Of a DNA stretch of 64,000 nt, positions 1 to 63,100 are shown one piece after another. A program made the translations under genes and the position numbers. Below the pieces are notes generated by a model that had not been told where the DNA came from, ran no database searches, and saw nothing but the letters and a program-made list of their open reading frames with translations. Each line of letters opens with the position of its first letter. Position 1 is the stretch's first letter. This DNA comes from Odontesthes bonariensis (Eukaryota > Chordata > Actinopteri > Atheriniformes > Atherinopsidae): contig NC_134510.1 of the NCBI RefSeq assembly GCF_027942865.1, positions 31,866,663 through 31,930,662 on the forward strand. Reading direction: 5' to 3'.

Positions 1-1
1 G

Positions 2-5002: not shown

Positions 5003-5036
5003 ACAGTGGTATAACAATTGTATACCAAGCGGGGAG

Positions 5037-5578
5037 TGTTCTGACTCCTGTCAGTGACTGGGAAAGTTAAGTTTCCCCCTGGTGGTGATTTTCGGTTATT
5101 GCTGCATTGATTACCGGCTGCTTCCAGTGTTCATGCATAAGCTACAAGTGCTCCACCACAGAGAGTTGGTTGTCTGAGCCTTGGAGTGGAACCAACAGTG
5201 AGTATTGATGCACTTGGTGTATTTTAGTTGTTTCATGACACTGTGTTGTTCAAGGTTATGTTTAGGCATTTATTTACGTTACGAAAACCGTGCTAACTAT
5301 GCTAATGCTAATCGCGAAGCATTTCGTTAGCAAGAAGCTAGTTAAGCTGTTATGGCTAATTTAGTTGAGTGTATTTCATGTTATGATTACTTTCCTGTGT
5401 GTGCATTCAGGTGATAATAGTATGTTAGACATATTTCATTTATCTATACTGTAACATGTTGTGTATTTCTTGTGTTGCAGTTTTACAAATAAAAATATAA
5501 CAGAAGATTCAGTAAAGCAACCTCAGTTAAACTACTGGTCTCTCATTTTGTTCGCTATCTGTCAGCCAGGACAGAATA
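5037..5578 (+). repeat. LTR shared between the two BEL copies (542 bp)
   Basis: Starts TGTTCTG and ends CAGAATA, an imperfect inverted terminal pair. It is identical in length to the LTR at 11542-12083. It is preceded by a purine-rich tract (ggggag) and followed by the gag leader. An AATAAA at 5488-5493 is a plausible polyadenylation signal. Ends were set by where the 3' flanks of the two LTRs diverge (gtaaaat versus ctaagac). Confidence 0.92.
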
Positions 5579-5648
5579 GTAAAATGTTGACCACTCAGCG
5601 GGGAAAGGCAACTGAACAGCTGTGAACAGCACGCAGAAGCATAGCAAG

Positions 5649-8600
5649 ATGAGTGACCAAGAAGAACGTCGGTCTCAGCTGGAGACGAGGTCTCGAGTCT
5701 CAGCTTCCCACAAATCATCCAGAGCTTCAACCCGGACATCAGTCAGCGCCGCTGCAACAAGGGCTAGAGCTAAGGCAGAAGCAGCAAAAATTAAGGTATC
5801 CTTTGCAGAAAAGGAGGCAGCCATGATGAAAGAAAAGGCTTCAATAGAAGCAAGTCTTCATGTGTTAAAACAAGAGAAAGAAACTACTGCAGCATCTAAA
5901 GAGGCAGCAATATTCGAAGAAGCAGCAGCAGCAGTCAACTATGTGGAAGAATCCGCTCTTCGTGAGTTACAGGATTTAGCTCTTGAAGATCCAATAAAAC
6001 GCACCAAAGACTATGTAGAAACGCAGCCATTTGATAAACATGCTCCACAGGAGTTTCAAGTTGCTATGTCACTTCCACCAATCTTACATCATAAATCAGT
6101 GATGACCCGACCCTCTAGTAAGGCACAAGATTCACTGTATGAGTCATTTAAGGATGAAGACGAGCACAAACCCATTGCTGGTGAAGGCTACACACCTCCC
6201 CCTGTCCCGAGGGTATTTTTCCCAAAGCAAGAGTATTCACCTGTGACTCCTGACCCCCAAAATAAATCACCTACGGTTACATTTCAAGCTCCTCATCTGG
6301 CACAGAGTAATAAATACTCACCTTCAACTCCTCAAACAACAGATTTAGCTCAGTATCTTATGAGAAAAGAGATGGTGAGCTCTGGACTCCTTGCCTTTGA
6401 TGATTGCCCAGAAAATTACTGGGCATGGAAAGTGTCTTTCCTAGCAGCTACAAGGGAACTGAACCTATCTGATCAGGAAGAGCTCAACCTTCTGGTCAAA
6501 TGGCTGGGGCCCGAATCATCAGCTCAAGCCAAGCGGATAAGGTCAGTACATGTTAATAAGCCTAGAGCAGGTGTCTTCATGGTATGGGAGCGTTTGGAGG
6601 AAACATACGGAAGCCCGGAGGTGATTGAAAGTGCTCTCCTGGAAAAACTAGATACTTTCCCAGCTATCTCAAACAAAGACACACACAAACTCAGGGAATT
6701 AGGTGACTTGTTAAAAGAGCTGGAAGCCGCAAAGGCTGAAGGATTCTTGCCTGGACTCATGTTTCTAGATACGGCAAGAGGTGTGAACCCAATAGTCGAA
6801 AAGCTTCCTTTCACCATGCGGGAACGCTGGATCACACAGGGATCCAAGTATAAGAAAGATTATCAAGTCCCTTTCCCACCATTCAGCTTTTTTGTCAGCT
6901 TTGTATGTTCCCAGGCTAAAACCCGCAACGACCCCAGTTTTGCATTTAACATCTCCTCTACTCCCAGCCAACACAAGTTAGGAAAAGTACCAAAATACTT
7001 TCCAAAATCAACTGTGACAGTAAGGAAAACTGAAGTCGCTGCAGCAATCAGTGTGCCGCAGGTTAACACAGCCATCAGGAAAGAAGAACCGGACAAGCAA
7101 TGTCCTATACATAATAAACCTCACCCGCTATCAAAATGCCGTGGGTTCCGAGGAAAGCATCTTGATGAGAGGAAGACCTACTTAAAGGAGAATTCAATCT
7201 GTTTTCGATGTTGTGCCAGCACCAAGCATATGGCTAAAGATTGCAGGACCACGCTTAAATGCATAGAGTGTGAAAGTGAAAAACATATCTCAGCGTTGCA
7301 TCCTGGTCCAGCTCCATGGTCGTTTGGTGGGCAGGCTGAACACTCACCTGAGGACAAGCAAAGCGGGGAGAATGAAGACCTTGTACCTCCTATGGTCACC
7401 TCCAAATGCACCAAGATATGTGGCGGCGCCCCCAAGCCAAGATCCTGTTCAAAAATCTGCTTGGTTAAGGTTTCCCACGCTGACCATCCAAGTAAGTCTC
7501 ACAGAGTGTACGCAGTACTAGATGACCAAAGCAACCGGTCTTTAGTAAAATCAGAGTTCTTCAGTCTATTGGACATTAACAGCAGTGCATCCCCCTACAC
7601 TCTGAAGACATGCTCCGGCACAATGGAGACTGCAGGGAGGAAAGCGAGTAACATCGTAGTGGAGTCACTTGACGGGAAAACCAAGGTGACACTTCCCACC
7701 TTGTTGGAGTGTAACTATCTGCCTGATGACAGATCTGAGATCCCAACTCCTGAGTGCACCCAATATTTTCCTCACCTCAGACCAGTGGCTGATAAGATCC
7801 CTCCAATTGACACTAGTGCTCCCATCCTGCTGCTGCTAGGCAGGGATATTTTGAGCTTGCACAAGGTACGTGAACAGCGTAATGGGCCTCACAACTCGCC
7901 ATATGCCCAGCGTCTTGACCTTGGCTGGGTCATAGTTGGGGAGTTATGCTTAGGTGGCGCTCACAAGACAGAGGTAGTCAACGCCTACAAGACGCATGTC
8001 CTCCAAAATGGACGCTCCTCTTTCCTTAAGCCATGCACCAATAGCATCCATATAAAGGAGAAGCTTAAAGGTCCAACCCAGTGCAGTCTTCAAACAGCAT
8101 CTCACACTGAGCAAATATCTCAGGAGACATGTAAAGATGGTCTGGGGGAAAGTGTGTTTCAGAAAACACCTGAAGATGACAAACCAGCCATGTCAGTGGA
8201 TGACAACAATTTTCTGAGGATAATGGAAAAGGAGGTGCATATGGACAATGAAAACCACTGGGTGGCACCGCTACCTTTTCGTACACCTCGAAAGCCCCTT
8301 CTAAATAACAGAGAACAGGCCTCCCAGAGACTCGCCTCTCTCCAGCGCTCATTCAGGAAAAAACCTGAGATGAAAGAGCACTTCTTTGACTTCATGCAGA
8401 AGGTCATTGACAACCACCAGGCAGAGCAAGCTCCTCAACTAGAGCCGGGGAAGGAATGTTGGTATTTGCCGACTTTTGGGGTTTACCATCCCCAGAAACC
8501 TGGAAAAATAAGAGTCGTTTTTGATTCCAGCGCTGAGTACAAGGGAACGTCATTGAATGATATGCTTCTCAGTGGACCCAACCTCAACAACACGCTAATT

Positions 8601-11507
8601 GGTGTTCTACTAAGATTCAGAAGGGAGCAAATAGCTGTCACAGCCGATGTAGAACAGATGTTCTATGGGTTCAAGGTCAGAGAGGACCACCGAAATTTCC
8701 TTCGGTTTCTGTGGTACAAAGATAATGATCCAGACAAGGAGATCGTTGATTACTGGATGACTGTGCACGTGTTCGGGAACAGCCCATCCCCAGCTGTAGC
8801 AACATATGGGCTGAGGAAAGCTGCAGAACAGGGAGAGACTGAACATGGTACAGACGCAAGGCATTTCATCTTCAGGAATTTTTATGTCGACGATGGACTC
8901 GCCTCAGTGGCCAAGGAGGTTGAAGCTATCAATCTTCTGCAGCGAACCAAGGCTCTGCTAGCTGAATCTAACTTAAGACTTCACAAGATAGCTTCCAATA
9001 GCTCAAAGGTCATGGAGGCTTTTCCTATGGAAGAACGATCAAGTGACTTTAAGGATCTAGATTTGGGAGCAGACCCCTTGCCCCTCCAGAGAAGTTTGGG
9101 TTTAAGCTGGGAACTCCAGACAGACAGTTTCACCTTCAGAGTGGCAAGAGATGTTAAACCATTTACTCGAAGAGGCATGCTGTCCACAGTAAATAGTCTT
9201 TATGATCCCCTTGGATTCGCTTCCCCCATAACAGTGCAAGGCAAAGCATTGGTGAGAGACGTTTCTTCAGAGCAGTATGAGTGGGACACGCCTCTCCCAC
9301 CAGAGAAAGAGACACAGTGGAAAGCATGGACCAACTCCTTAATTGAGCTAGAACAGGTTTGCATTCAGAGAGCATACATTCCAGTCTCTATGTCATGTTC
9401 TAAATGGACAGAACTATGTGTTTTTGCAGATGCTTCGACCATGGCTATAGCTGCTGTAGCCTTCCTGCGTGTCTTGGATTCAGAGGGAAAATGGCATGTA
9501 GGGTTTGTGATGGGAAAGTCAAAGCTAGCTCCTTACCCCATGCACACTGTACCTCGCCTGGAGTTGTGCGCAGCAGTCTTGGCAGTCGAGCTGGCAGAAG
9601 TGATCCAATCTGAAATAGATATTGAGCTGCAAGCAGTCAAGTTCTTCACAGATAGTCGCATCGTGCTGGGCTACATCCACAACAGTTCACGAAGGTTTTA
9701 TACCTATGTAGCCAACCGAGTAGCTCGTATTCGAAGCTCTACTGAACCAAAACAGTGGCAGTATGTGTTGACTGACCAAAACCCTGCAGACCAGGGAACC
9801 AGGCCAATTTCAGCAGCTTACCTGTCCTCATCCAGTTGGTTGCTTGGCCCCCCTTTTCTCAGGCAGTTAAACCAAGGTCAAGATGATGAAGCAGAACCAT
9901 TTGAGCTTGTAAACCCAGACAAAGACAAAGACGTTCGGGCCCAAGTCACCTCTCTTTTAACCAAGGTCACAGATCATTCTCTTGGATCCACAAGATTTGA
10001 ACGCTTCTCTACTTGGAAGAGTCTAGTAAGAGGTGTGGCATTTCTCATTCATGTAGTCAAGTCATTCTCAAGAGAGGCTAAGACTGAAAGTTGTAAGGGA
10101 TGGCATCAATGCAATCAGCTGCTCACCACAGAGCGTTCTCAAGCGAAGATGGATATCTTCAAGGCTGTGCAGGAGGATGTGTATAAAGAGGAGCTGAAAT
10201 GCTTAACTCAAGGTACCAAAGTGCGCTGCCAAAGTCCCCTTGCGAAGCTGGATCCCTTCATTGACAAGAGCGGATTGATTAGAGTTGGAGGTCGGATAAA
10301 CAGGGCAGATTTGGAAGACCAAGAGAAACATCCACTCATCCTGCCAGCTGGCCATCATGTAACCACTCTCGTGGTCCGACACTATCATGATAAAGTAGCC
10401 CACCAAGGTCGCCACTTCACAGAGGGTGCATTGCGCACCGCTGGTGTCTGGATAGTAGGAGGGAGGAGGCTTGTCTCTGGTATCATATTCAAATGTGTCA
10501 TCTGTAAGAAGTTAAGAGGCAAGAGAGAAGTTCAAAAGATGTCTGATCTGCCGGCTGACCGGCTGGAAATGGACCCGCCTTTTACTCATGTCGGGCTAGA
10601 CGTTTTCGGTCCATGGAGTGTCAACACTCGACGGACACGAGGTGGAGCTGCTGAGAGCAAGAGGTGGGCGGTCATTTTTGCTTGTTTAAGTACAAGAGCT
10701 GTGCACCTTGAAGTTATTGAAACCATGTCAACCTCGAGTTTCATCAACGCCTTGAGGCGCTTTCTATCCATACGTGGACCTATCAAACACCTAAGGTCAG
10801 ACAGAGGAACAAATTTCATCGGTGCTTGCAGAGAACTTAAGGTTAACACAGACGATTCTGAGATCAAGAACTACCTGCAAGAGCAGGGATGTACATGGAC
10901 CTTTAATGCTCCCCATTCCTCACACATGGGAGGAGCTTGGGAGAGACTTATAGGAGTGGCAAGACGCATCCTGGATGGACTGCTAGTAAAGGATGGTGCT
11001 ACCAGACTGTCTCATGAAGTGCTATCAACCTTGATGGCCGAGGTTATGGCCATTATGAACGCTCGACCACTGGTTCCAGTCTCATATGATGCAGAGATAC
11101 CTGAAATGCTCTCACCTGCCACCCTGCTCACCCAGAAGGCGAGTATTACTCCTGCACCTCTAGGAGACTTTGAATTGGACCATCTGTGCAAGGTGCAATG
11201 GCGCCAGGTCCAGAGCTTGGCAGACTCCTTCTGGAAAAGGTGGAGATTGGAGTACCTGGCAACACTTCAACCACGGAGGAAATGGACCTCAGAGAAGCCT
11301 GACCTCCAGGAAGGGGACATTGTTTTGATAAAGGACGTTCAAGCGAAACGCAACGAGTGGCCTCTTGGACGGATAGTTAAGGCCATTGCCAGCTCAGACT
11401 GCAAAGTCCGTAAGGTCGTAGTGAAGATTCTTAGTCAAGGGGTAATTAAAGAGTATCTTAGACCCATCAGTGATGTTGTTTTACTTATGCCGCAGAAGAA
11501 AGAGTAA
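5649..11507 (+). CDS. BEL/Pao gag-pol polyprotein (1952 aa)
   Basis: Single frame from ATG 5649 (MSDQEERRSQ); the frame is open nine codons further upstream but without an ATG. Order of domains: E/K/A-rich coiled-coil-like N-terminus (about 1-110); BEL-type gag (about 200-400); zinc knuckle C518-X2-C521-X5-H527-X4-C532; retropepsin-like protease with the BEL-type LDDQS at D625-D626; reverse transcriptase with catalytic D1000 and YVDD at 1079-1082; RNase H with D1261, E1305, D1335; integrase zinc region about 1580-1625 and catalytic D1651, D1718, E1765; then a C-terminal domain typical of Pao polyproteins (WKRWR, GDIVLIKD). All catalytic residues are present, so the polyprotein looks intact. 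Function: self-replication through an RNA intermediate. Confidence 0.95.
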   Translation: MSDQEERRSQLETRSRVSASHKSSRASTRTSVSAAATRARAKAEAAKIKVSFAEKEAAMMKEKASIEASLHVLKQEKETTAASKEAAIFEEAAAAVNYVEESALRELQDLALEDPIKRTKDYVETQPFDKHAPQEFQVAMSLPPILHHKSVMTRPSSKAQDSLYESFKDEDEHKPIAGEGYTPPPVPRVFFPKQEYSPVTPDPQNKSPTVTFQAPHLAQSNKYSPSTPQTTDLAQYLMRKEMVSSGLLAFDDCPENYWAWKVSFLAATRELNLSDQEELNLLVKWLGPESSAQAKRIRSVHVNKPRAGVFMVWERLEETYGSPEVIESALLEKLDTFPAISNKDTHKLRELGDLLKELEAAKAEGFLPGLMFLDTARGVNPIVEKLPFTMRERWITQGSKYKKDYQVPFPPFSFFVSFVCSQAKTRNDPSFAFNISSTPSQHKLGKVPKYFPKSTVTVRKTEVAAAISVPQVNTAIRKEEPDKQCPIHNKPHPLSKCRGFRGKHLDERKTYLKENSICFRCCASTKHMAKDCRTTLKCIECESEKHISALHPGPAPWSFGGQAEHSPEDKQSGENEDLVPPMVTSKCTKICGGAPKPRSCSKICLVKVSHADHPSKSHRVYAVLDDQSNRSLVKSEFFSLLDINSSASPYTLKTCSGTMETAGRKASNIVVESLDGKTKVTLPTLLECNYLPDDRSEIPTPECTQYFPHLRPVADKIPPIDTSAPILLLLGRDILSLHKVREQRNGPHNSPYAQRLDLGWVIVGELCLGGAHKTEVVNAYKTHVLQNGRSSFLKPCTNSIHIKEKLKGPTQCSLQTASHTEQISQETCKDGLGESVFQKTPEDDKPAMSVDDNNFLRIMEKEVHMDNENHWVAPLPFRTPRKPLLNNREQASQRLASLQRSFRKKPEMKEHFFDFMQKVIDNHQAEQAPQLEPGKECWYLPTFGVYHPQKPGKIRVVFDSSAEYKGTSLNDMLLSGPNLNNTLIGVLLRFRREQIAVTADVEQMFYGFKVREDHRNFLRFLWYKDNDPDKEIVDYWMTVHVFGNSPSPAVATYGLRKAAEQGETEHGTDARHFIFRNFYVDDGLASVAKEVEAINLLQRTKALLAESNLRLHKIASNSSKVMEAFPMEERSSDFKDLDLGADPLPLQRSLGLSWELQTDSFTFRVARDVKPFTRRGMLSTVNSLYDPLGFASPITVQGKALVRDVSSEQYEWDTPLPPEKETQWKAWTNSLIELEQVCIQRAYIPVSMSCSKWTELCVFADASTMAIAAVAFLRVLDSEGKWHVGFVMGKSKLAPYPMHTVPRLELCAAVLAVELAEVIQSEIDIELQAVKFFTDSRIVLGYIHNSSRRFYTYVANRVARIRSSTEPKQWQYVLTDQNPADQGTRPISAAYLSSSSWLLGPPFLRQLNQGQDDEAEPFELVNPDKDKDVRAQVTSLLTKVTDHSLGSTRFERFSTWKSLVRGVAFLIHVVKSFSREAKTESCKGWHQCNQLLTTERSQAKMDIFKAVQEDVYKEELKCLTQGTKVRCQSPLAKLDPFIDKSGLIRVGGRINRADLEDQEKHPLILPAGHHVTTLVVRHYHDKVAHQGRHFTEGALRTAGVWIVGGRRLVSGIIFKCVICKKLRGKREVQKMSDLPADRLEMDPPFTHVGLDVFGPWSVNTRRTRGGAAESKRWAVIFACLSTRAVHLEVIETMSTSSFINALRRFLSIRGPIKHLRSDRGTNFIGACRELKVNTDDSEIKNYLQEQGCTWTFNAPHSSHMGGAWERLIGVARRILDGLLVKDGATRLSHEVLSTLMAEVMAIMNARPLVPVSYDAEIPEMLSPATLLTQKASITPAPLGDFELDHLCKVQWRQVQSLADSFWKRWRLEYLATLQPRRKWTSEKPDLQEGDIVLIKDVQAKRNEWPLGRIVKAIASSDCKVRKVVVKILSQGVIKEYLRPISDVVLLMPQKKE

Positions 11508-36452: not shown

Positions 36453-37949
36453 CTAACTGGCCATCGATTTGGAGACAAGCGTCCTCTCCCATTCCACTTC
36501 CACCACTTTGTAAAGCTCCATAGTGGCTTTGGCGTCCTCCACAGAAGAGTGGCCCTTCCTCCCAGTCTGTGGACACATGAGAGGAAGAGTTCAGCGTCAC
36601 ATTGACGACATCAACTAAATTGAGATGACAGTATTTTTTTCATTTTAGGACTGAAAATTGTGATTCTGCTTCAGCCAGATCATGTCATCGACCTAAAATG
36701 CATTGCACATGTCAAGTTAAGGCAGCTTCTTAGGTTTAGACTTTTTTAAAATACTATAAATATCTTATCCGTTTTTTAAAAACCTTTAACTGGAAGAGAT
36801 ACTAACAACACGGTAAGTCCTTTTAGGTTGTGGTTCCTTTTAAAATGCACACTAAGAGCCAAACAGTCTTTGCTTACCTGGATGTCACGGTTGAAAATGG
36901 CTTTGGTGAGTCTCTTCAGTGAAGCGCACTCACTCTCAGCAAAGCCAGCCTTCAGGTTGAGCAGAGGGATCCGAGATGTGTCCCTGGTCAAGACACTGGG
37001 GTGAGAGTAACCGAGGGCCTTGTAGTCATTGTGGATGGCATGGCCAATGACCACCTTCCCCATGAGCAGCTTCAGTATCTATTGAAGCAAATGGACAAAA
37101 CATTTAAATTACTGGCTGTTGTAGTGTTTGCTGTTCCCTGAACACACCTGGAATCAATAGTCACCTAACTTAAGTGTCTATTTATTTCTCCAGTACCTTG
37201 TTAGGTTTTGTTTTGCATTAAAACTAAAAGTGCTAAACCAATAATTGTGTGATGACCTGTTTCAACTGTTTCAGAATAAAAGACTTTCTCACCTCTTTCC
37301 TGGCCTCCGAGTACGGCGTGGCCTTGATGAGGTCTCTGGGTCGAATGCCGCTCCATCGCGTGCGGTAGTCCGTAACAGGCATCGAGGGTTTGATGAACTT
37401 ATCATAAACGACATCTCCTTCATAGGACACGATGCTGCAGCGCGCCAACTGGTTGATGCTGCCTTTTGGTCCTGAACCCACCATCTCACAGTCAATAGAG
37501 AGGAACTTATTGGGGTTTCCTGCTGTCGTGGTGGCGGGTCTATGGCTGCCCGATGCTGAAGGCCTGTGGTCGGCGGCTGCGGTCACAGGTTCCTTTGGCT
37601 GTTCTTGTCTGCCGTTGCTATTCACAGTGACAGATACTGAAGGCTGGCTGTTGGTGGATGTTGAGGGCCTGGAGCTACAGTGAGACGCACCGGCAGCACT
37701 TGTGAGATGAGGCGAATGTTTGTTTGGGGCAGCAGAGAAAGGATACTTTGTGAAAGATCCATTCTGTCGTTGACTTTGGTGATGTCTGTAGTCTGCCCTG
37801 TGGTGGGTGTTATTTTGTTTACCTCTCAGGTAGCCCTTAGCCTCCAAGTACCGCATCTTTTTATGATAGAACTTCTGTTTCTTCTTATTATTATTATTAC
37901 CCGTTAGGGTGTCATCAATAGGGCAAATGTTGATCACAAGATCTGACAT
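36453..37949 (-). CDS. isg20l2: ISG20L2, DEDDh 3'-5' exonuclease (323 aa)
   Basis: Coding exons on the minus strand: 37949-37293, 37078-36878, 36566-36453; all junctions are phase 0 with GT-AG sites. The N-terminal half is basic and low-complexity ([15 protein letters not shown]), consistent with nucleolar targeting. The exonuclease domain shows all DEDDh residues: LSIDCEMVG (D, E), [10 protein letters not shown] (D), and [18 protein letters not shown] (H, D). Known role of the mammalian protein: trimming of 12S pre-rRNA towards 5.8S in the nucleolus. It is called isg20l2 rather than aen from [23 protein letters not shown] and the neighbours bcan and mettl25b. Start at 37949: Kozak A at -3, and the upstream frame has no ATG before a stop. 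Confidence 0.92.
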
Positions 37950-38077
37950 GTTGACATTAAATGTAACGTTTTCCCACAGAACTTGCCTACAAATGTCTCC
38001 TTTTTTGACAGCCTCAACAGGTCTCTGTTCTTTGTAGTCCAACTTATACCAGCTGAAACGTGTTTAGTCGCATCATC
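37950..38077 (-). other. isg20l2: isg20l2 5'UTR exon portion with uORF
   Basis: Acceptor TCTGTTTTGCAG before 38077 marks the start of the exon carrying the main ATG. The first bases are GATGATGCG; an 11-codon-long uORF (ATGATG to TAA, 38076-38044) precedes the main start. Upstream non-coding exon(s) are not located. Confidence 0.65.
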
Positions 38078-41652: not shown

Positions 41653-45721
<4,069 letters not shown>

Positions 45722-48229: not shown

Positions 48230-49420
48230 TTAGAACTAAAATTCCTTCAATCCGAGTTGTGTGTGTTGAGCCAGATTTATGAAGCAAAATTTCAGCCCCC
48301 TTGGTGACTAAGAAAGCACATTATCGCTACCAGATGTTACTTACACATGCCACAAAGCTATGGGTCCTTGGGACAGAGTTTCCCAGAGTAAAATTCCTGC
48401 TGAGAGACCAGTTTAGCTCTCATATGCGACCTTAACATTGGTTTTAAATCAGTGCCCTTTTTGTAAAAACAACATTTGTGGATTTGTAATCCACCTCTTA
48501 AGAAAACACTAACAAAAACTAATACTTGAGCTCCTTAAATTTTGTGAAACAGTCCAGGGCCGAGCCGACATCACTGAGAACCATGAAGCTTTTGCCAAGG
48601 TTTGGGATATGTCACAACCCTCCAACTGAACAGAGTCTAAGGCTTCAACCTGAAGCAAACTAGTCAAATTGTAGAGACGGCCTGTTCATTGCACATTGTT
48701 GTGTTTTTTTCTCCCGCAGAATGAAATGAGCCAGTATAGGTGGTTTAGGCACCAGATAATTAGAAACTATGGACACATCCATTAGAGACTGAACAGGTCA
48801 ACTGGCTGGAGGGCACAGGGCTGAACCTATGACTCATCGGAAGATTTGTATCTAAAAATTTGGATGGATGGATGGATGGATGGATGGATGCTTGTTGGTG
48901 GTGTTTTAGCAGAGCAGGCTAAATGCTTCTACCAGTGCAGTCTGCTACAAAGATGGAATCAATCTACTTAACATTAATATCTATTAATGTAAAACCTAGA
49001 ATGGTACTTTGTGAATTTAGCAGGAATGAAGGTGACAGAAGGCTGAACACTGTCAGAAAGGGCACAAAATTTACAGATATAGATGATCATTTTTCTGCTC
49101 TACCAGGGTCAAGCCATCCCTGTTACTCATGCAACCCCTGCAACATGTCAAGCATTTGCTGTCCATCCTGCCACATATTGTAGGGCATAAAGTTGAGGTA
49201 GAGGCCGGCATGGTGACATGTCAGTTTTTCCCACTTGTAAAAGCAGACTGAAGCTCTTCTTGTGCTAAATCTTGACACATAAATATCCGTCAGGAAGGCC
49301 TCAAGCTCCCTGAAGAGCACTCTGTGAGCAGGTACAGTCTGGCTGTACAACAGTGATTAATGTTTTTTTGTCCTTCAGGAGCGAATCGTGTACTACAGAG
49401 TCCTGTGAACGGAGAGTTTT
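48230..49420 (+). pseudogene. Decayed partial duplicate of the Frizzled-CRD/EF-hand gene (promoter, exon 1 and exon 2 relics)
   Basis: 48541-48710 resembles the first exon of the downstream gene (shared strings such as caaggtttgggatat and attgtagagacggcctg) but has an in-frame TAA at 48638-48640 where the intact gene has CAA. 49101-49175 resembles the second exon including its acceptor (ccag then GGTCAAG), and 49285-49420 resembles its end (gcactctgtgagcaggtac, cagagtcctgtgaacgg); the middle is missing. 48230-48540 also matches the 5' flank at about 50330-50600. There is no open frame across it. Confidence 0.8.
48861..48891 (+). repeat. (GGAT)n microsatellite
   Basis: About seven GGAT units within the pseudogene region, between the exon 1 and exon 2 relics. 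Confidence 0.9.
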
Positions 49421-50680: not shown

Positions 50681-51070
50681 ATGAAGCATTGGTTTTTGGG
50701 TGTGTGTCTGCTGCTGTTTCCTCAGCAGACACAATCCTGGAGAGATGAGAAGACAACCTGCAAGCCAGTAACATCCAACTTTTGTCAAGGTTTGGGATAT
50801 ACCACCACCCTCCATCAGAGTGGAGTCCAAGGCTTCACCCTGCAGCAAATTGGTCAGATTGTAGAGACGGCCTGCTCGCCGCACATCGCCACACTCATGT
50901 GCCGTGTCGTTGTGCCTGAATGCAACTCAGAGGATGACAGCCGAAAGAAACCATGCCGAGCTCTCTGTGAGACAGTCAAAAGAGACTGTGAGTCTCCACT
51001 GAGAGCAAAGCGTCTGTCTTGGCCGACAAAGCTCCGGTGTGACACTCTACCAGCATCTAACTGTATACAG
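50681..51070 (+). CDS. Exon 1 of Fz-CRD/EF-hand gene: signal peptide and CRD 1
   Basis: Ten CRD cysteines (from [14 protein letters not shown] through CETVKRDC to SNCIQ). The most divergent of the four CRDs; it lacks the LLGH motif. Donor CAG|GTTAGA, phase 0. Confidence 0.85.
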
Positions 51071-54000
51071 GTTAGAATGAAAAAATGATTTTGTATGAGA
51101 AAAGGTTTTTGTTGTTATCATTCTTCACATAATGAAGGGGACCGGGGACTTATTTATCTCTCTGAATGACTTTGGATGGCAAATTTGGAAACATTTAGAT
51201 GCATAGTAAATGTAAAGCAGTTAAAAGCAGTGTAAAGACTGAAAACAGAGGAAAAGAGCCAGTGTGGTATATCTGCGATGAAGTCAACCTGCAGCATTAT
51301 AGCTCACAAATTAGCAGCTGTATATTCTGGTGCAATCTGCACAGAAAGTTTCCTGTAAGAATTACAGTGGTTGCAAGTCATCGTTGCATAAGACCTAGAA
51401 ACTTAAATCCAGAAGTTTTTTGGGTTTTTTGCCTTGCAGTTTTTGTTCACATAGTGACTAATTAGTTTGAGCTGGTTGGTGTATTTTATAAACTTTTACC
51501 ACAGCCACATGAACTGCTTCTCCTGTATCTACTGCATCACCCATAATTATCAAATATACATGCTTACACATATACTGTCTAACTAGACCTGAACTAAAAT
51601 TAACACAAACAACTGCTGTATGCACCAAAAGTTCAATTCTCATAAAATATAATCTTCCATGCTAAATATGTTCTGCGCAGATCTTTCTGTGCAACTTTAA
51701 GTTAACTATAAGAAAGTTGTGCTTCTAAAGTCTTGTGGTTTTCTTCACTGTTTTGTGATAATAACCACAGAAGGAAAACAATAAAAGAAATTAGGAGGTT
51801 GAAAAGCTAAAGCAAATGACAAATAAGATTATCAATAAGACAATTAAGCTTACTTCTTGTTCTTCTTTTACACCTGGACTGATTTAGCTAATCACCGCCA
51901 CTTGCCTTTAGATAGTCATTTGCTCCCTCAGTATAAATACTCCTTGTATTCCATAGTTCATTGCCAGATCATTGTCATTATTTTTTTCCCGTAGCTTTCC
52001 CTGATGGTCAGTCCTGTTTGGGTTTTGTTTCTTGATAGTTTTCAGTTTGGTTGCTTGCTATTTCTGCCTCTGCAGTTTTGTTATCTATGAAGTCACTGTT
52101 TTCTTCAGCTTCCTGTAAGTTCGTTTGGATCCTTTCCCTCCTTGGTTCAGCCATAAATGTTTGTCTGCACTGAAAAATAGCTAAATAAATAAGAATAAGG
52201 AGGAAATCAATAGATACAGCTTTTGTGCTAGTTGCACATTTTTTGCTGTGGGATTTGGCTGCTATATCACTGCCCCATGAAAGCATTCTTGGCTTACACA
52301 GTACATGTAGGCCTTATTTTCAAGTGTAATCCTGGGAGAACAAACTAGTTAATGAATGTAATTACATTTAAGTTCATTTTCAATGACATTTTGGCAATCA
52401 ATTATGAAAATAAAATACAGAAAGAAATTCACAGGATCAAGGGTCCAGCAATTTATTGATATTTAAAAAATATATTTTTGCATGAATCCCCACAGGATTG
52501 TGCCCTCTGCAGAAGTGAAGCATATCCATGACGTTTAAAACCTAGATCTTAACCTGATGCTACCATGGCAAGTCAAAAATCCAGGTTCATATTTATGTCC
52601 ACCAGTGAGCAAGGGCAATAAAAATGGCTGATAATTAAATATATCCCTGTCTTTGTATTTTCTTGTCTTTCAGGGTCAAGTAGTCCCCGTTACACAAAGA
52701 CCCCCCGCAACATGTCAGCCAATCACAGTGCCGCTCTGCCAAGACATGCCTTACTCAGAGACCACCCTGCCCAATATTCTAGGTCACAGATCTCAGGAAG
52801 ATGCTGGCCTGGAGATAAATCAGTATGGTCCGCTTGTGAAAGTGGGATGCTCCCCTCAACTGAAGCCTTTCTTGTGCTCAGTGTACATACCTAAATGTGT
52901 GTCAGGAAGATGTCAGCCTCCCTGCAGAACTCTCTGTGAGCAGGCACGGTCCGGCTGTGCAACATTAATGAACAATTTTGGGTTTCAGTGGCCTGAGGCC
53001 CTCAAGTGCGAAACATTTACCACAGAGTCCTGTGAACGGGTAAGTCTACCTTTAACTACTTTGACTTGAAGATGAGGAGATATTTACATATTTGGGATCA
53101 ATAAATGCAGAGTTCTTAAAGAAAAACTGAGCACCCAAATTTTAAAAGGTGTTTTCTTCTGCCACGTTTGGTGTCAGCTGAAACTGTGAGTAGCATTTGA
53201 GAATGTGAGTAAACCAGTATTGCAACAAACTACAGCAGCAACGTGAGATATGGATTTTCATCAGGTGTTGGGTCAGTCTTTGATAATGACATCAAAATTA
53301 GAGAGTACATATAGACTTATAAACAATGATTTTCTTTTTTTTTTGATCCGGCACTTTTCACATATCAAACTACATGCAGTTTCAAACAGTAACAGTTTCA
53401 GCAAGACAAAAAAGTGCATGTGAGAATGTGCATGAAAACTACAATGGCAACTTTGTTCTTACTGGACTGATTTATGTTTCCATTTATCCAGGCTTCACTC
53501 GTCAATTTTCCTGAAATGTCTCCATCAACATGCCAGACCATTACACTGCCGTTCTGCAAAGATCTGCCTTACACAGAAACTGTGGTCCCCACCATTCTTG
53601 GCCACAAAACACAGGAAGAGGCCCATCTGGCAATGAGTGGACTTGTGCCACTAGTACAGTTTGGATGCTCTCCTCATTTGAAACCTTTCCTGTGCTCTGT
53701 CTACCTTCCTAAATGTGAGTCAGGGAAAGTTCAAAGTCCCTGCAGAACGCTCTGTGAGCAGGTACGAACTGGCTGTGAGCCAGTGATGAACAGGTTCGCC
53801 GTTCAGTGGCCAGAAATCCTCAACTGTGAGACATTTAGCACAGAGTCCTGTGGACTGGTAAGTCAGCCCCATCTCTTAGACAAAAAGAATAGGAAATGTT
53901 TACAAGAACATTTGTGTCTTGTACTTTTCAACTGTTCGTAACCTAAATCTTTGTGTCTCCTCCTCAAGTAGGATTTTTATTTCATATTTATAACATTTAT

Positions 54001-57000
54001 CTTTATAGGAAAACCTAAGACAGGGTAATTTTTTTATAAAGCTGGTAATACAAAATTAGCTTTCAGTCAGACTTTGTATGTTTTTTTTAATCTCTTGCTC
54101 TGAAACCAGGGAGCAATTATAGAATTTAAAAAAATGGGCAGAGTTCAAATAAAACAGTGGGTGACATTCGGTGTTACCACGTGTCATTGCGTGCATGATG
54201 ATATGTATCCTACCAATGTCACAATTCTGATGGTCTAATCTCAGAACACAAAAAAATAAGATAGCAGCGATGCTGATTGCTGTGTTCTGCTGGAAAGACA
54301 CTTAGTGCTCAGAAGTACTTCACTCAACCACATAAAAAAAAACATAGGTCACTAGTTTATTGATTATGTTTTAGGCCTTCATTGGCCTAACAGAGAAGTG
54401 GTCCAGTTCTTACAGACAAAGTCTCTGGCATTTTCACCAGAAATAGTCTAGCTAAAAACTAAATAAATCAGCTCCCAGCAATAACTACAGAGGATTGTAC
54501 TTTTATGTCTGCAGTACGGCGTGAGCAACAACGGGGGAATCTGTGAGCCGATCACCATACCCATGTGTCAGGGTTTGTCCTACAACCAGACCATTGTTCC
54601 GAATCTTCTGGGCCACAAAAGTCAAAGAGAAGCAGTCTCAAAGATGTCCTTTTTCAACTCGATGGTGCAGACTTTATGCTCAGCAGACATCCGCCACTTC
54701 CTGTGTAGGGTGTACGCCCCAGAGTGCGTGGAGGGGCAGGTGCAGATGCCCTGCAGATCATTTTGTGAGAAATCCAGACGAGACTGTGAAGGTTTGATGA
54801 CCAGTTTTGGCGTCTCCTGGCCTGAACAGCTGCAGTGTAACTCTTTCCCAGAGGAAATGTGTGTGTCTGTAAGTACTGAACACAAAATCCATGTGCAATA
54901 CTGCATCTCTAGATTTATGTTTAAAAGCAACTTCCTTCTATTTTTCTGTCACAGGAACAAAGCAGGACAAAGGTGAGTAAATCAAATCTTTTCAGAAATT
55001 TGATCTTATTTGAACAATCTTTGCTCATGATTTCAAAAATATAATTAAAAAAATGAAATAGAAGACAAGATACACTAGCAGCAGAACAAAATAGAAAATG
55101 AAAAGGTTAAAAACATCTTTATAGATCGCGTCAAATTTGTTTTCTTTCATTTCTGTAGGAATCATAACCTGCAAGGGATATTTTGTTGTGCATTCAATAA
55201 ATACAATTTAAATAACCTAATGTAAATAATAGTATAAACCTCTGTGTTATGAGGATACTGCATATTATGTGAAACAGAACACAGTTTTATCATCCTTTGT
55301 CTGATTTTGTTCGTCATTACTTCCAGGTACTGAGAGCTGAAGATGTTCTTGCTAAACTGAATTCCGGCGGCTACACCGTTCGTGGCAAATGTCAGTTTAA
55401 TTACCAGTAATTTCACCTCATTATCTCATGAGCTTAATGAGAACATTTTAAACTCATATTTGATTTTATTGTTTGAAATTTAGCCTTAACTCTCAAGACT
55501 GCCCACCTGCTCTTGATTTTCAAGGATGTATCCTTTGTAACTGCAACTGTTTGATTTTTTTTTACTATTAACTCTGTTGATATACTCAATATAAATAGAG
55601 ACATATTTTGTTCCTGGTTAAGAGGAATTAATGAGGAAACTGTCTTTTGTGTTAAGCTTCAGCTGCTCCTCTCTTCATTTTTGCAATTTCTAAAGATGTC
55701 ATCCCACATTAGCAAGAGATTTTTGCAGTATCAGTCCCTCCCAATTTTAGTTTATCTTTTTATGTCTATTCCTTTTTTTCACTATGGAAGCACAGTTCTT
55801 CGATATAAGACATATGAAATATAAATGTAAGAAAAAAGGTCTTTGACCATCTTTGGTGAGACCAAATAAATTATCTTGTTAGCCAATAATGAAAGACATA
55901 AGGTAAAAATTATGTAATTACCAATAGTTGCGTTTCTTTCTCTCTTGGTAACTACATTGATGGAGTCATCTTAGTCAAATCTGATTTGTCTGAAACATAA
56001 ATATCAGAATGCTGTGCTGTTACATTATCCTGAAGATTCTTGTGTTTCTATGTTCAGTAACCTGAAAATAGTACAAAGACAATATAATCAATGGCGAAAA
56101 TAAGAAATAGGAAATAACGCTTTTTAAAAGTGTTATGCATTGTCATATTATTAACATATAAGGTGATATCATTTAGAGAAAATGCTTCCATACACAGCAG
56201 CTCTGCTCTCATATTCAAAACATCAAAAGTTTGGAGAGGCCAACATACAAGAAGGTGTTGAGCTTTATGAAAAGTTTTACGCTCTTTAATCAGCACTTTT
56301 AGGCGGACAAGACGGGAGACTTGGATGTGGTGGAGTGGTTCAAACTGGAACACTATGTGGCTGTTGTCAGGAGAGAGTATGTGGAGAGCTACGAGAGCAG
56401 TAATCCAACCTCTGACACACAGACCCAGATGAAGAAGGCTCTCGCCGCCCATGGTATGAAATTGTATATTTAATAAGTAAAGTTTCAAACATCTTTCTCA
56501 CCATTTTGTTGCCAAGCCTGGAAGAGAAAAAAAGACAAATTACTGATACAAGAGATGCAAACACAAGTGAAACTTAAGTTAATACATCATAGATTGGATG
56601 CAGGATGCTGTGACAAAACTAAAATGTTTGCATGTGATCCTGTTTGCAAATATGGTCCAACATGAAATGCACACCCACTGTCACATGTTGGATGCACAAC
56701 ATCCGATTTTACTAAACAACTAACAGGTTCGTTGCTATGATCTGAAAACTTTTAAAAATGCACAAGGTTTGGTTTGTAGACTGATTTTCAGACATTGTCT
56801 TCTTAATGCAGATTTTGATTTAGATGAGGAAACTTTCAAATTTCTGTGGTTGGAGTACCGCTCCCAAGGTGGGATCGAGTACAACGACTATGTGGCAGCC
56901 CTGACAAGACTTCACATCCTCAAAGGTAACTGACACAAAAAGGAGATGTTTTTCATAATACACATAGTTTTTCTTTTCTCTACATTTTCATCTCATCACT

Positions 57001-58922
57001 TAACGTAGCTGCTTTAAATGTTGATAATTAGGTCTTCCTTTTTGTCCAAGTGGTATTGGCAAGTGAGGGGAATGATCTGGAGAGTCAGTATGAAAACACT
57101 GGGTTATTGTAAAAAAAATGTGGGTAAAATTCAGTGAATTTGTTGAATATCTTTATTATTGCTATATTACGGTGGCCGAGACGTGCAAACGCATTGCAAA
57201 CGGCAAAACAAATCCAACATAGTCATCATAAACCGGACAATGATCTATCAGACTATTTAGAGCCACGATTAGGTAACGACCTCAGATTTTAGTTTTTTAC
57301 TATGTCCCAGTTTGTAAAACCTTTGAACAACTGAAAGTAGTGTGACTCTTTTTTCCCATGGCTGTAAATATCTTCTTCGTGTCTCAGATCGTTTTCAGGC
57401 CCATCTGCTCAATTTGCCGTGTGACTGCCGAGTTGCCAGATTCTCTTTCAAGCAGGTGACTATACACAGTTTTATTAATCTTGTCAAATGAATTACGTCT
57501 CTTGTACATGATTGTTTGTTTACAATCCACAAACTGACATCAGTAAGATTTACAGTACAAGTTGGGTGATACAGTTACCATTTAGATATGTTATTAATTT
57601 AATTTTGCAGATAGGATAGGTATAAAAATTTTGTTTGTTTGAGTATTAGCTCAATTAGTCATGAAGGTTAGAAAACCAGCAACCGCTGTTACAAAGTAAA
57701 TAGACAACAGGCAACAGACTTTTAAAAATGCAATAGGAAAACAATTTAAATATTAGAGAGATAACTCCAGTTAATTCACAAGTTAACACTCTGGAGTCTA
57801 AAACCCGCCGGCGGGATTTTTTGACACTTCTCTAAAACCACATCTGTAACTCTGTGAGCTTTTGTCATTCAAACATATAAGTGACACCATTAAAAACCTT
57901 GAAACTTTTAGTTTTCAAATATATATATATTAAAATAAATTATATAGCTGGCCATTTTTAAGGAGAGTGAACAGAAATCTTTGGATTTTCTGTTGTCTCA
58001 GACTGTAGCAGCTTCCTAGGCCACACCTATCGCTATTCACATGTAAAGTACCAGGTGATTGAGTGGCTATTCACAGGTGAGAACACGCCCCATTCAGCCA
58101 GCATGTGGGGGAAGGCAGCAATGTCCTGCCAGTGACAGACAATTATCACATGGAGAGTGACAGGGGGGTGGGGGCAATCAGCCATCTAATTAGTATTCAA
58201 CTCTCAGAGACACTACCTGGAGTTACAATTACTTTTTTACAGTTTGTGTGAAAACAAAAAACCTTTCTGACTGCACTTTTTACTTTTATGCAGCCAACAC
58301 TTTTGTTTACAAGGTTCAACCTTCAAAAGTCTTGGCTAGATATATTTACAGTGTGTTTTCTTGCACTGTTTGAAGACCTCTAAAACTTGTTTTTTTGTAC
58401 AGTTGTGTTTCCCTCAATTTAAATAAAACTTGTTTGTATTACATTCACTTCACTCTCATATTATTTTTTGTTAGGCTTTTCAGAATACAACCATATGTGT
58501 CACTTTTGCATACATGTTTACAGTTAGTTGAAATACTTGAAAATGTCAAGGTGGTGAGAACTGCCTCAAAGTCTCTGAAAAGGCCTTAGACTCCAGAGGG
58601 TTCATTCCCAACAATTCATGAAAGTTTTTTTTTTCTTCTTCTCATTTCAAATATAGAGACAACTGAGCTGAGAAGTTTCAGTATTTTATAGAATCTAAAA
58701 TGGGGACCTCTGCTGGTCTTTAACTGGTATTGCAGTAATAGAATCACTATAAACGACCAACTGCCGAGTGAATTTCTGGCTTTCACCAATGATATTTGGT
58801 GTACTGCAGATTAAAGATTATAAGAAATTATTATATTTTTATTTCAAAATAAGTGCATAAGGCTAACAATATTTTCTATTATATTTGACCATTTTCAGTT
58901 CATGAAATCAGCCATAATCTGA
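50681..58922 (+). CDS. Predicted secreted protein: four Frizzled CRDs plus C-terminal penta-EF-hand module (652 aa)
   Basis: Eleven exons: 50681-51070, 52674-53039, 53492-53857, 54515-54868, 54955-54972, 55327-55390, 55484-55527, 56303-56453, 56812-56925, 57388-57455, 58899-58922; every junction is GT-AG and in phase. Start ATG 50681 has A at -3 and opens a signal peptide ([19 protein letters not shown]). Residues 1-130, 131-252, 253-374 and 375-492 are one Fz-type cysteine-rich domain each, one exon each; 493-498 is a microexon; 499-652 resembles the penta-EF-hand domain of calpains and sorcin. Fz CRDs bind Wnt proteins and lipids (family knowledge); there is no transmembrane segment and no netrin domain, so it is neither a Frizzled receptor nor a standard sFRP. 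Poly(A) signal AATAAA at 59167-59172. I know of no named family with this order; function unknown, a Wnt-binding secreted role being inference. Confidence 0.85.
52674..53039 (+). CDS. Exon 2: Fz CRD 2
   Basis: 122 codons, phase 0 to 0. Contains [38 protein letters not shown] and LCEQARSGC. It has 11 cysteines: the extra one is in VSGRC, between CRD cysteines 5 and 6. Confidence 0.88.
53492..53857 (+). CDS. Exon 3: Fz CRD 3
   Basis: 122 codons, phase 0 to 0, same length as exon 2 and clearly its closest relative: [52 protein letters not shown]. Ten cysteines. Donor CTG|GTAAGT. Confidence 0.88.
54515..54868 (+). CDS. Exon 4: Fz CRD 4
   Basis: 118 codons, phase 0 to 0. The most Frizzled-like: [40 protein letters not shown]. 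Ten cysteines. Donor TCT|GTAAGT. Confidence 0.9.
54955..54972 (+). CDS. Exon 5: 18-nt microexon
   Basis: Encodes EQSRTK between acceptor TTTCTGTCACAG and donor GTGAGT, phase 0 to 0. Skipping it would keep the frame, so its inclusion may be optional. It is a hydrophilic spacer between the last CRD and the EF-hand module. Confidence 0.65.
55327..58922 (+). CDS. Exons 6-11: penta-EF-hand-like C-terminal module
   Basis: 154 residues from [16 protein letters not shown] to FMKSAII-stop. The order follows the calpain domain IV layout: EF1 helix, then [15 protein letters not shown] leading into the canonical 12-residue loop [12 protein letters not shown] (EF2), a degenerate EF3 ([14 protein letters not shown]), EF4-like [15 protein letters not shown] and [15 protein letters not shown], and a terminal helix equivalent to the dimerising EF5. 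Only EF2 has a full set of calcium ligands. The EF2 loop is split between exons 7 and 8 (GAT|GCG GAC). The last coding exon (58899) is only seven codons plus stop, after an intron enlarged by a MITE. Confidence 0.75.
57787..58600. mobile_element. piggyBac-like MITE (814 bp) in the last intron
   Basis: Ends CACTCTGGAGTCTAA and inverted CCCTCTGGAGTCTAA. Left flank TTAA (57783-57786), right flank TTCA (58601-58604), a one-base decayed TTAA. No coding capacity. Confidence 0.75.
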
Positions 58923-59166: not shown

Positions 59167-59172
59167 AATAAA
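59167..59172 (+). terminator. Polyadenylation signal of the Fz-CRD/EF-hand gene
   Basis: AATAAA 245 nt after the TGA stop, followed by a GT-containing stretch. Confidence 0.6.
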
Positions 59173-60162: not shown

Positions 60163-63100
60163 CTATATCTGACACAAAGACACTGAGGGCTTCTTCATCC
60201 AAGGCTTCAACCTGAATGCTGGGTAGAGAGGTTCAGTGAATTTGGTGTGGATGGTGTGGAGGTGGAACAGTTTTTCAGAAGACACACTGTAAAATGACAG
60301 AGTGGAAGCAGGCCAGTCCAGGTACACTCCCACTCTGCTGGAAGTGGGGATATAGAGTGATGTTATGTTGTTATTGTGAAGAAAGGACCAACAAGGATCA
60401 GTGGACGTCAGACTCCAGGACTGATCGTTATTTCCCAGACAGGAGTCGTCAAAGTGTCCTTTCCTTCCTATTCCTTTGTAAGTCACTGCTAAATAAACTG
60501 CTCCTTCCCACTCAGCTTCCCAGTAACAGCGGTCAGTTGTTGACAGAGCATCTCTGGACATTACCTGGTTCCAGTAGTCAAACCTCTCTGGGTGATCAGG
60601 ATATGGGTGCTCATCTGTCATCAGTGACACTGTTTTCTTGTTCTCAGACAACTTAAGCTTTGTGTACACTGTGTTTGGGTCCAGTGAAACTTCACAAGCA
60701 TCTGTCACAGAATAGAGAGATTTGTTAATAGATGCAAACACAGTGAAAGGTACCTCAATCAGTAATGATTCGGAAAGATTCAGCAAATAACAGACAAATA
60801 CAGTTAGAAACTTAAGCTGCAGAGCTTTAAGTACATCACTCATCATCAGATGGAAACAAACACAACTAGAAATAGTATTAGTAGTATTGAATGATACTTT
60901 CTCCAAAGGTGCAGTGTGTGGAAATAAGTGCTAACAATGTGCATCAACCTAAAATGTCACAACTCACAACGTAGGATGTCAATGTTATACAAGTGGTCAA
61001 AAGAGATGAACAAAATAACACTAAATTCAATTCAGTAAGCACAAAGTACTTTAGTATTTAAAGAAGTTCTGTTCAAAAGTAGTTCTGGTTCAGACTACAG
61101 TTTTCAATGCAGTATATCAAGTGTCCTGTACTGACCATTAAACTGTACCTAATGTATTATTGCTCTCCTCACATTTGTGTTTTTAATGCATGCTTCTGCT
61201 GTTCATATGGCTCACTTCCACTCTCACAAGCTCTATGTCTGCCTTCTCTGACTCATTCTTGATATCAGTGTTGTATTAACAGATGTAGAGTGCTCTGCAT
61301 TAATATAAAATAACATTTTTACTAAAGATATCTTTTTTTTGGATTCAGGTTCAGTCTTTGCAGCTCCACATTTGATGTGGAGAATGAATGAAAGAAAGGG
61401 CACACTTACATTTTTTTGGACCAGGTTTCAACATCTTGGCTTCATTGTGGTCCACTCTAGAAGAATAGTTAAAAACATAAAGTTAGATAAGTATGTAAAT
61501 GCACTTTCGAATCATCTATGTACATCTTTGTGCATTAGCTGAAACTCTGTATTAGTTGCTGCTGTTTAAATGCTTGCTTGATGTTCACTTCAGTTCAACC
61601 AATATCTAAAAAGAATTAAAATGTATTTTGAGCTTGTCAGTTGCCACAACAATTTTCAAGAGAGCGAGGGACAAGACCGTCATTTTGTAAGACAAACTTC
61701 TGCAAATGGTTTAGATAAGTGAAAATATAATAATCTATTGAACGCCCAACTTACTTATAATTATTCTCCTTCCCTCTTTTGAAATGTTATCTGTCTTTTA
61801 AGCTGACATAGATTTAGTTTACTGTTCACCATTATTACCTCCGCCAAGGAGGTTATGTGATCGCCCGAGTTTGTCTGTTGCTTTGTCTGGATGTTCGTTC
61901 GTCTGTTCGTGCTGCAATCTTGCGACCTGCCACAAGGTGGCGCGACCTCAAAGTGCCAAAGCCAAACAGAGCCAAAGCCAGACAGAATGCGTAGTGCGCG
62001 GATTGAATGCATATTGCGCGGATTTGCTGTAATTAGCACAACAAAAGATTGCAACGGCAAGCCAGTGTGCATAACTGCATATAGCGTAATAATAACGGCG
62101 AACACTGCTTCCCGACAGAACATTATAATAATAATAATATTAATAATAATTAATAACGGCGAACACTGCTGTTCAATAATGAATAGGGAGAAGGGAATGC
62201 CTCTTCTGCTGACAGCGCCAAAGAACAAGTAGCCCACATCAGGAACGTATGTCCATACATGGCTCGCTATCCACAGGTAGGTTGGCGGTTGGCGGTTGGC
62301 GGAGGTCTGCACTCTCTGAGTGCATTTCTAGTTATTTATATGTTGGGATTTGCACTTTAAATTTTTAAGATTTTAAGCTTTAACAAGAGCATTGCATGAA
62401 TTAAGGAAGTTTCATCCTGTTTCTTTCAATCTACATGTACATCAAGATTCTTTCACTATCATTCATTAAGTGAGTCTATGACTGCATAAGAGTACAGTTT
62501 GATGTATGGATTTAGTTGAACCCTAAATTATATTAAAAAAAGAAAGGAAAAAATGTTAATTAAATTAATGTTTGACACATTGAAAACATATCTCAGAGTT
62601 TATTGTTTCTTTCCAAACAAGTGTCACAGTTCACTTGATGTACTTTTACTGGTGATCCTGCACCGTTGTTCTTGAATAAAAACTGTAATTTCTATTACTG
62701 TGTAAGAGTTGAATGTTCTGCTCACTTCACAGAAAAATCTTATAAAACTCATCAAAGAGATTAATTGAATCATTTCAGATCAATAAAACTAACATTTTTA
62801 CACAAGTATTGTTACTTGTACTTATTGTGTTTCAGTAAGTTGGAAACCAAATGTATTTTTTGTCATTGATATGATAAATGCAAAGTTATTTCCAGTTAAT
62901 GAAATTGTAAAAAGTCTATCTTCTGTAACACAAACTAATTCATATAACCAAACTCTCAAAAATCATAATTTTCAGATTTAGTTAGATGAATTAGACCTGT
63001 AGAAAGGATTATGAGCTGTGGACAGATGTTGCCTCTTAAAAAAAATAATTTATTCATTTTGAACCCTAGCTCCAACTATGTTCACCCCATTCCCTCAACA

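Follow-up and report, generated by a model that had tools for sequence, protein, structure and literature searches.

A 64,000-nucleotide stretch of the Odontesthes bonariensis genome (contig NC_134510.1; hereafter the window) carries a gene in which four Frizzled (Fz) cysteine-rich domains (CRDs) are followed by a domain derived from the penta-EF-hand (PEF) family. This domain assignment is well supported. The order of CRDs before PEF is genuine, and it is conserved across the teleost relatives that were listed. We rebuilt the gene from the raw sequence at 50681-58922 on the plus strand. All 11 exons have GT-AG borders, join in frame and are free of internal stops, giving one open frame of 652 codons plus a stop, in agreement with the original prediction of a complete 11-exon gene with clean splice sites. 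The predicted signal peptide and four Fz CRDs were likewise recovered: a 10-residue stretch at residue 4 reaches a Kyte-Doolittle (KD) hydropathy of 2.62, consistent with a signal-peptide-like start, and Pfam places Fz (PF01392) in four stretches (E 2.1e-113). The ten-cysteine pattern of the Fz CRD is present in all four, with one additional cysteine in CRD2, and modelling likewise shows the CRD fold. Each CRD is a single exon ending in phase 0; a six-codon linker exon and six EF-hand-type exons encoding the PEF-like domain follow (Table 1). A candidate polyadenylation signal, AATAAA, lies at 59167.

The EF part of the window protein gave no Pfam match at E<=1. Compared with sorcin chains, it scored E 4.8e-8 as a single sequence and 2.5e-16 as a profile of eight family PEFs. 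The top E-values of the profile search went to a mu-like calpain, whose 73.9 bits are the sum of two domains (34.9 and 36.2), and to CFAP115, whose 66.3 and 66.2 bits are the sum of many weak repeats; the best single-domain match was sorcin (63.2 bits), with calpain-3 at 51.8 and grancalcin at 51.5 bits. Predicted models of relatives matched PEF structures, grancalcin, calpain-3 and sorcin being level by fold; the second PEF model was that of P0131, which comprises window residues 493-652 unchanged and four additional N-terminal residues. The PEF model has seven helices, the entering (first) helix of EF1 being missing, whereas the sorcin PEF has eight (PMC4649501). We therefore call the domain PEF-derived and not a full penta-EF-hand member.

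A canonical Ca2+ loop is confined to EF2, and its key ligands are kept in 106-107 of 107 PEF sequences; because these sequences are related and include isoforms, such counts are not independent. EF3 is degenerate, with Q at position 12 in 94/107 and P at position 5 in 96/107 pieces, and judged by sequence it lacks the sorcin-type Ca2+ switch site. The EF5 loop carries a near-invariant cysteine pair (C634 and C636 in the window protein), and the EF4-EF5 region is retained. A sorcin-like Ca2+ switch thus appears unlikely. Of the penta-EF-hand module that had been predicted, the fold holds, but not five working EF-hands.

We collected 130 distinct relatives, isoforms included (the best 120 of 241 matches and ten new proteins among 120 of 575), and scored their domain content with our own CRD and PEF profiles. 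PEF was present in 117 of them, and in 116 all CRDs precede it, so the fused order that had been proposed is not peculiar to the window; in P0122, sorcin comes first, followed by three CRDs and PEF. The 13 proteins lacking PEF include five from fish (P0007, P0047, which is a partial record, P0111, P0112 and P0120), the others being from krill, lobster and starfish together with five further proteins resembling these. Two of the fish proteins, P0007 with eight CRDs and P0120 with three, are from Oryzias, where loss or a bad gene model is possible. None of the best 120 of 241 relatives is listed with an EF-hand accession. Zebrafish, gar and tetrapod names did not occur among the matches listed (120 of 241 and 120 of 575), which does not imply absence; the source name of P0065 bears a second, mammal label, which we took as a mislabel.

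Fused proteins of 530-657 amino acids were found on eight contigs of 2011-2754 bases (P0022, P0041, P0053, P0089, P0090, P0095, P0096 and P0103). These contigs are too short for a gene with such introns and were taken as processed mRNA, although a retrocopy would look alike. They bear on whether the locus might instead comprise two transcription units, one for a secreted protein made of CRDs alone and one, beginning in intron 4 or at exon 6, for a cytosolic PEF protein, linked only by gene prediction or by occasional splicing. The weightiest evidence against fusion here is P0131, a 164-residue Odontesthes bonariensis model ('penta-EF hand domain-containing protein 1-like') that consists of PEF alone and begins with MCNT at 54891 inside intron 4. 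PEF-only models are also on record for Leuresthes, Xenentodon, Seriola and Enoplosus, and P0132, P0135 and P0136 are of this kind; two fish models, P0111 and P0112, have CRDs alone. However, the MCNT start of P0131 is followed by GC, not GT, and would require this non-GT donor and a 52-base intron. The starts of P0132, P0135 and P0136 coincide with the exon 6 border, and Seriola lalandi is represented by a fused model, P0024, besides the PEF-only P0136. The complete fused frame is present on each of the eight contigs (2.0-2.8 kb), the 1009 bp contig of P0134 runs from CRD4 into PEF, and the transcript-like fragments P0141 and P0143-P0146 show foreign, intron-like sequence upstream of the PEF exon and no clean PEF start. 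The two conserved cysteines of PEF also speak against two units. We consider two separate units improbable. Separate EF-hand transcripts had been named beforehand as what would overturn the fusion; this condition is touched in part, since PEF-only protein models occur in several species, yet no clean PEF-only transcript contig was seen among P0131-P0146 (of P0131-P0152).

The window protein is predicted to be secreted, as implied by its signal-peptide-like start, the dependence of its CRDs on disulfides and the lack of a membrane-helix-like stretch. Among the relatives, 27 of 130 have 19-mers with a KD of at least 1.6 after residue 60; in 26 these fall in a cysteine-bearing CRD helix and the remaining one is P0127, which lacks PEF. 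Membrane anchoring was rejected on these grounds. The only N-glycosylation sequon of the window protein is at residue 398, in CRD4. Extracellular Ca2+ is millimolar, so that outside the cell the EF2 site would be permanently filled and PEF would act as a rigid scaffold rather than a sensor. Two chains could then pair via EF4-EF5, bringing eight CRDs into one particle, and the cysteine pair would probably lock the EF5 loop, or the dimer, through a disulfide. Sorcin dimerises via EF5 (PMC4649501), and with EF4-EF5 kept here, the EF part could plausibly mediate dimer formation. Alternatively, PEF might work within the secretory pathway, as a tail that helps the CRDs to fold or to be trafficked. 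The Ca2+ concentration of the endoplasmic reticulum is high, which together with the one retained EF2 loop would suit such a tail, but the window protein ends in SAII with no KDEL-like C terminus, and the five commonest ends (73/130 listed relatives) are not KDEL-like either. We regard this as a poor prospect compared with an extracellular scaffold.

Which ligand the CRDs would bind can be approached through their similarity to FZD7, to which CRD1 is 31%, CRD2 65%, CRD3 50% and CRD4 51% identical. CRD2 ranks FZD7 first (156.8 bits), followed by FZD2 and FZD1; FZD8 scores 123.1, FZD4 99.3 and sFRP3 87.5 bits. From this CRD similarity we infer a possible Wnt antagonist role, in which FZD7-like CRDs would bind Wnt or its lipid and a Ca2+-stabilised dimer would act on Wnt by avidity, as an extracellular buffer or decoy. 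A secreted CRD-PEF protein could also have a ligand other than Wnt, namely a different lipid, a protein of the matrix or of gametes, or a factor from a pathogen, with the CRD copy number varying accordingly. Such a ligand would fit the distance of CRD1 from FZD7, the range of three to six CRDs in full-length fused relatives and the presence of Fz CRDs in corin, MuSK and Smoothened, named in a review (PMC6938638). The FZD7-like CRD2 and its bit scores argue against it, and we think a non-Wnt ligand rather unlikely, though not far-fetched.

Taken together, we see about an even chance that the gene encodes a secreted four-CRD protein whose PEF is a Ca2+-loaded dimerising scaffold and which acts as a multivalent Wnt-binding decoy or buffer; dimerisation and Wnt binding are the inferred parts of this proposal. 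Several points weigh against it. In addition to the PEF-only models, the 13 relatives without PEF, the low identity of CRD1 and the non-independence of the PEF counts, the G at position 6 of the EF2 loop is replaced by R, E, D or N in 22/107 sequences, and a disulfide between the cysteines of a CxC motif is strained. For the full-length protein P0022, the model is confident inside the domains (mean predicted local distance difference test 84.6), but its predicted template modelling score of 0.39 leaves the inter-domain arrangement undefined.

The number of CRDs has changed within the fish proteins. In a FastTree phylogeny of 105 CRD modules (pieces <87 amino acids dropped, lobster not included, support values absent), the fish CRDs fell into three classes: A (CRD1), B (CRD2 and CRD3) and C (CRD4). 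The arrangement is A-B-C in Oncorhynchus, Polymixia, Lampris, Myripristis, Centroberyx, Thalassophryne and Xiphias; A-B-B-C in Perca, Lates, Cololabis, Menidia and the window gene; A-B-B-B-C in Chaetodon; A-A-B-B-C in Pampus; and A-B-A-B-B-C in Nothobranchius, Cyprinodon and Xiphophorus. Boreogadus departs from other fish with A-B-B. Isoform pairs differ by one CRD (P0043, with fewer, and P0013; P0097 and P0059; P0104 and P0069), which fits skipping of phase-0 CRD exons. Two CRD copies upstream of the window gene were rejected as exons of the present gene due to stops and frame breaks (Table 1). They look like the remnant of an extra CRD1-CRD2 pair that five- and six-CRD relatives retain, among them the six-CRD cyprinodontiforms and, partly, Melanotaenia, and suggest that one A-B pair was lost in the window lineage.

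The origin of PEF may be indicated by P0122, annotated as 'sorcin isoform X2 [Salvelinus namaycush]', in which sorcin minus its usual last residues continues into the first exon of the CRD-PEF gene. If the model is right, sorcin precedes the CRD-PEF gene in that species and is read in the same direction. The junction, after FPYDD, matches the position of the last intron in the window (FSFKQ, then FMKSAII). In mouse Sri, a swap of the last coding exon replaces eight residues (PMC10502117), compared with seven encoded by the last window exon. PEF is 26% identical to salmonid sorcin. Capture of a duplicated sorcin would be the simplest origin, based on one model (P0122) and one gene structure. 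Sorcin was not found inside the window, where the best tblastn match of the salmonid sorcin part was exon 9 of the gene itself (E 0.028); the upstream neighbour is not sorcin but a methyltransferase-domain gene (PF13679), a candidate mettl25b. More tentatively, and with some doubt, we propose that PEF derives by capture from a sorcin gene next door. It would then have lost the calcium switch, retained a single structural Ca2+ site and acquired the cysteine pair, and would now serve outside the cell as the dimerising scaffold of an array of Wnt-binding CRDs that has grown and shrunk, giving teleosts a multivalent Wnt buffer.

Table 1. Coordinates of the CRD-PEF gene, decayed CRD exons and other features of the window
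Feature	Position	Strand	Content	Basis
Exon 1	50681..51070	+	Signal-peptide-like start (about residues 1-20) and CRD1 (class A), residues 1-130	Splice/phase, Pfam Fz
Exon 2	52674..53039	+	CRD2 (class B), residues 131-252	65% identity to FZD7 CRD over 102 residues
Exon 3	53492..53857	+	CRD3 (class B), residues 253-374	Pfam Fz, tree
Exon 4	54515..54868	+	CRD4 (class C), residues 375-492	Pfam Fz, tree
Exon 5	54955..54972	+	Linker EQSRTK, residues 493-498	
Exon 6	55327..55390	+	Start of PEF (EF1 remnant), from residue 499	
Exon 7	55484..55527	+	EF2 entering helix; last codon is first Ca2+ ligand D534	
Exon 8	56303..56453	+	Remaining EF2 loop (residues 535-545, 56303-56335), long helix, degenerate EF3 loop (565-576, 56393-56428)	EF3 loop position from alignment with sorcin
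Exon 9	56812..56925	+	EF4 region	
Exon 10	57388..57455	+	EF5 loop with C634 (57420-57422) and C636 (57426-57428)	
Exon 11	58899..58922	+	Last helix FMKSAII and stop	
Decayed CRD1-like exon remnant	48587..48709	+		61% identity over 41 amino acids
Decayed CRD2/3-like exon remnant	49104..49412	+		Frame breaks
Retrotransposon reading frames	1..11504		Two near-identical tandem Pao-type frames, one cut by window edge	
Exonuclease-domain reading frame	37236..38063	-	Upstream neighbour	PF00929
Methyltransferase-domain reading frame	44423..45229	+	Upstream neighbour	PF13679
PRY-SPRY exon	60166..60930	-	Downstream	PF13765, PF00622

If the proposal is true, a domain familiar as a calcium sensor of the cytosol would serve as a structural part outside the cell, and a tandem-CRD family would join the possible Wnt regulators in fish. 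Since PEF is below the reach of Pfam, it would escape domain surveys and the protein would be misnamed in annotation; Wnt work in fish models may thus overlook a secreted player. Among the papers listed by our literature searches, which largely lacked subscription papers, none described an Fz CRD and PEF architecture, in line with the initial view that no named vertebrate family has this order. As Fz CRD proteins, the review (PMC6938638) names FZDs, MuSK, ROR2, corin, Smoothened, sFRPs, CPZ and COL18A1. In the window protein the parts were already known and the combination is new.

The sFRPs share with this protein an Fz CRD without a membrane part and the proposed sequestration of Wnt. An sFRP has one CRD and a netrin-like (NTR) domain, whereas CRD-PEF proteins have three to six CRDs and PEF, and the window protein gave no Pfam match to NTR at E<=1. 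Frizzled-7, -2 and -1 resemble it in the CRD, as CRD2 illustrates, but are receptors with a seven-helix membrane domain, which Pfam did not find here, where the CRDs stand in tandem. Corin also has more than one Fz CRD, and database entries of the relatives often carry its name; its trypsin-like protease and LDLR repeats were not found by Pfam in the window protein. The krill, lobster and starfish proteins (P0100, P0117 and P0129) share tandem Fz CRDs, five to seven in number and with no other Pfam domain listed, but differ by the lack of PEF, and CRD2-4 of Acanthaster and CRD2-6 of krill cluster separately in the CRD tree. Sorcin, grancalcin and the calpains share the PEF fold and the EF2 loop and, in the case of sorcin, the last intron position. 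In contrast to these, the PEF described here sits behind a signal-peptide-like start and an array of CRDs, and combines a missing EF1 entering helix and a degenerate EF3 with the EF5 cysteine pair.
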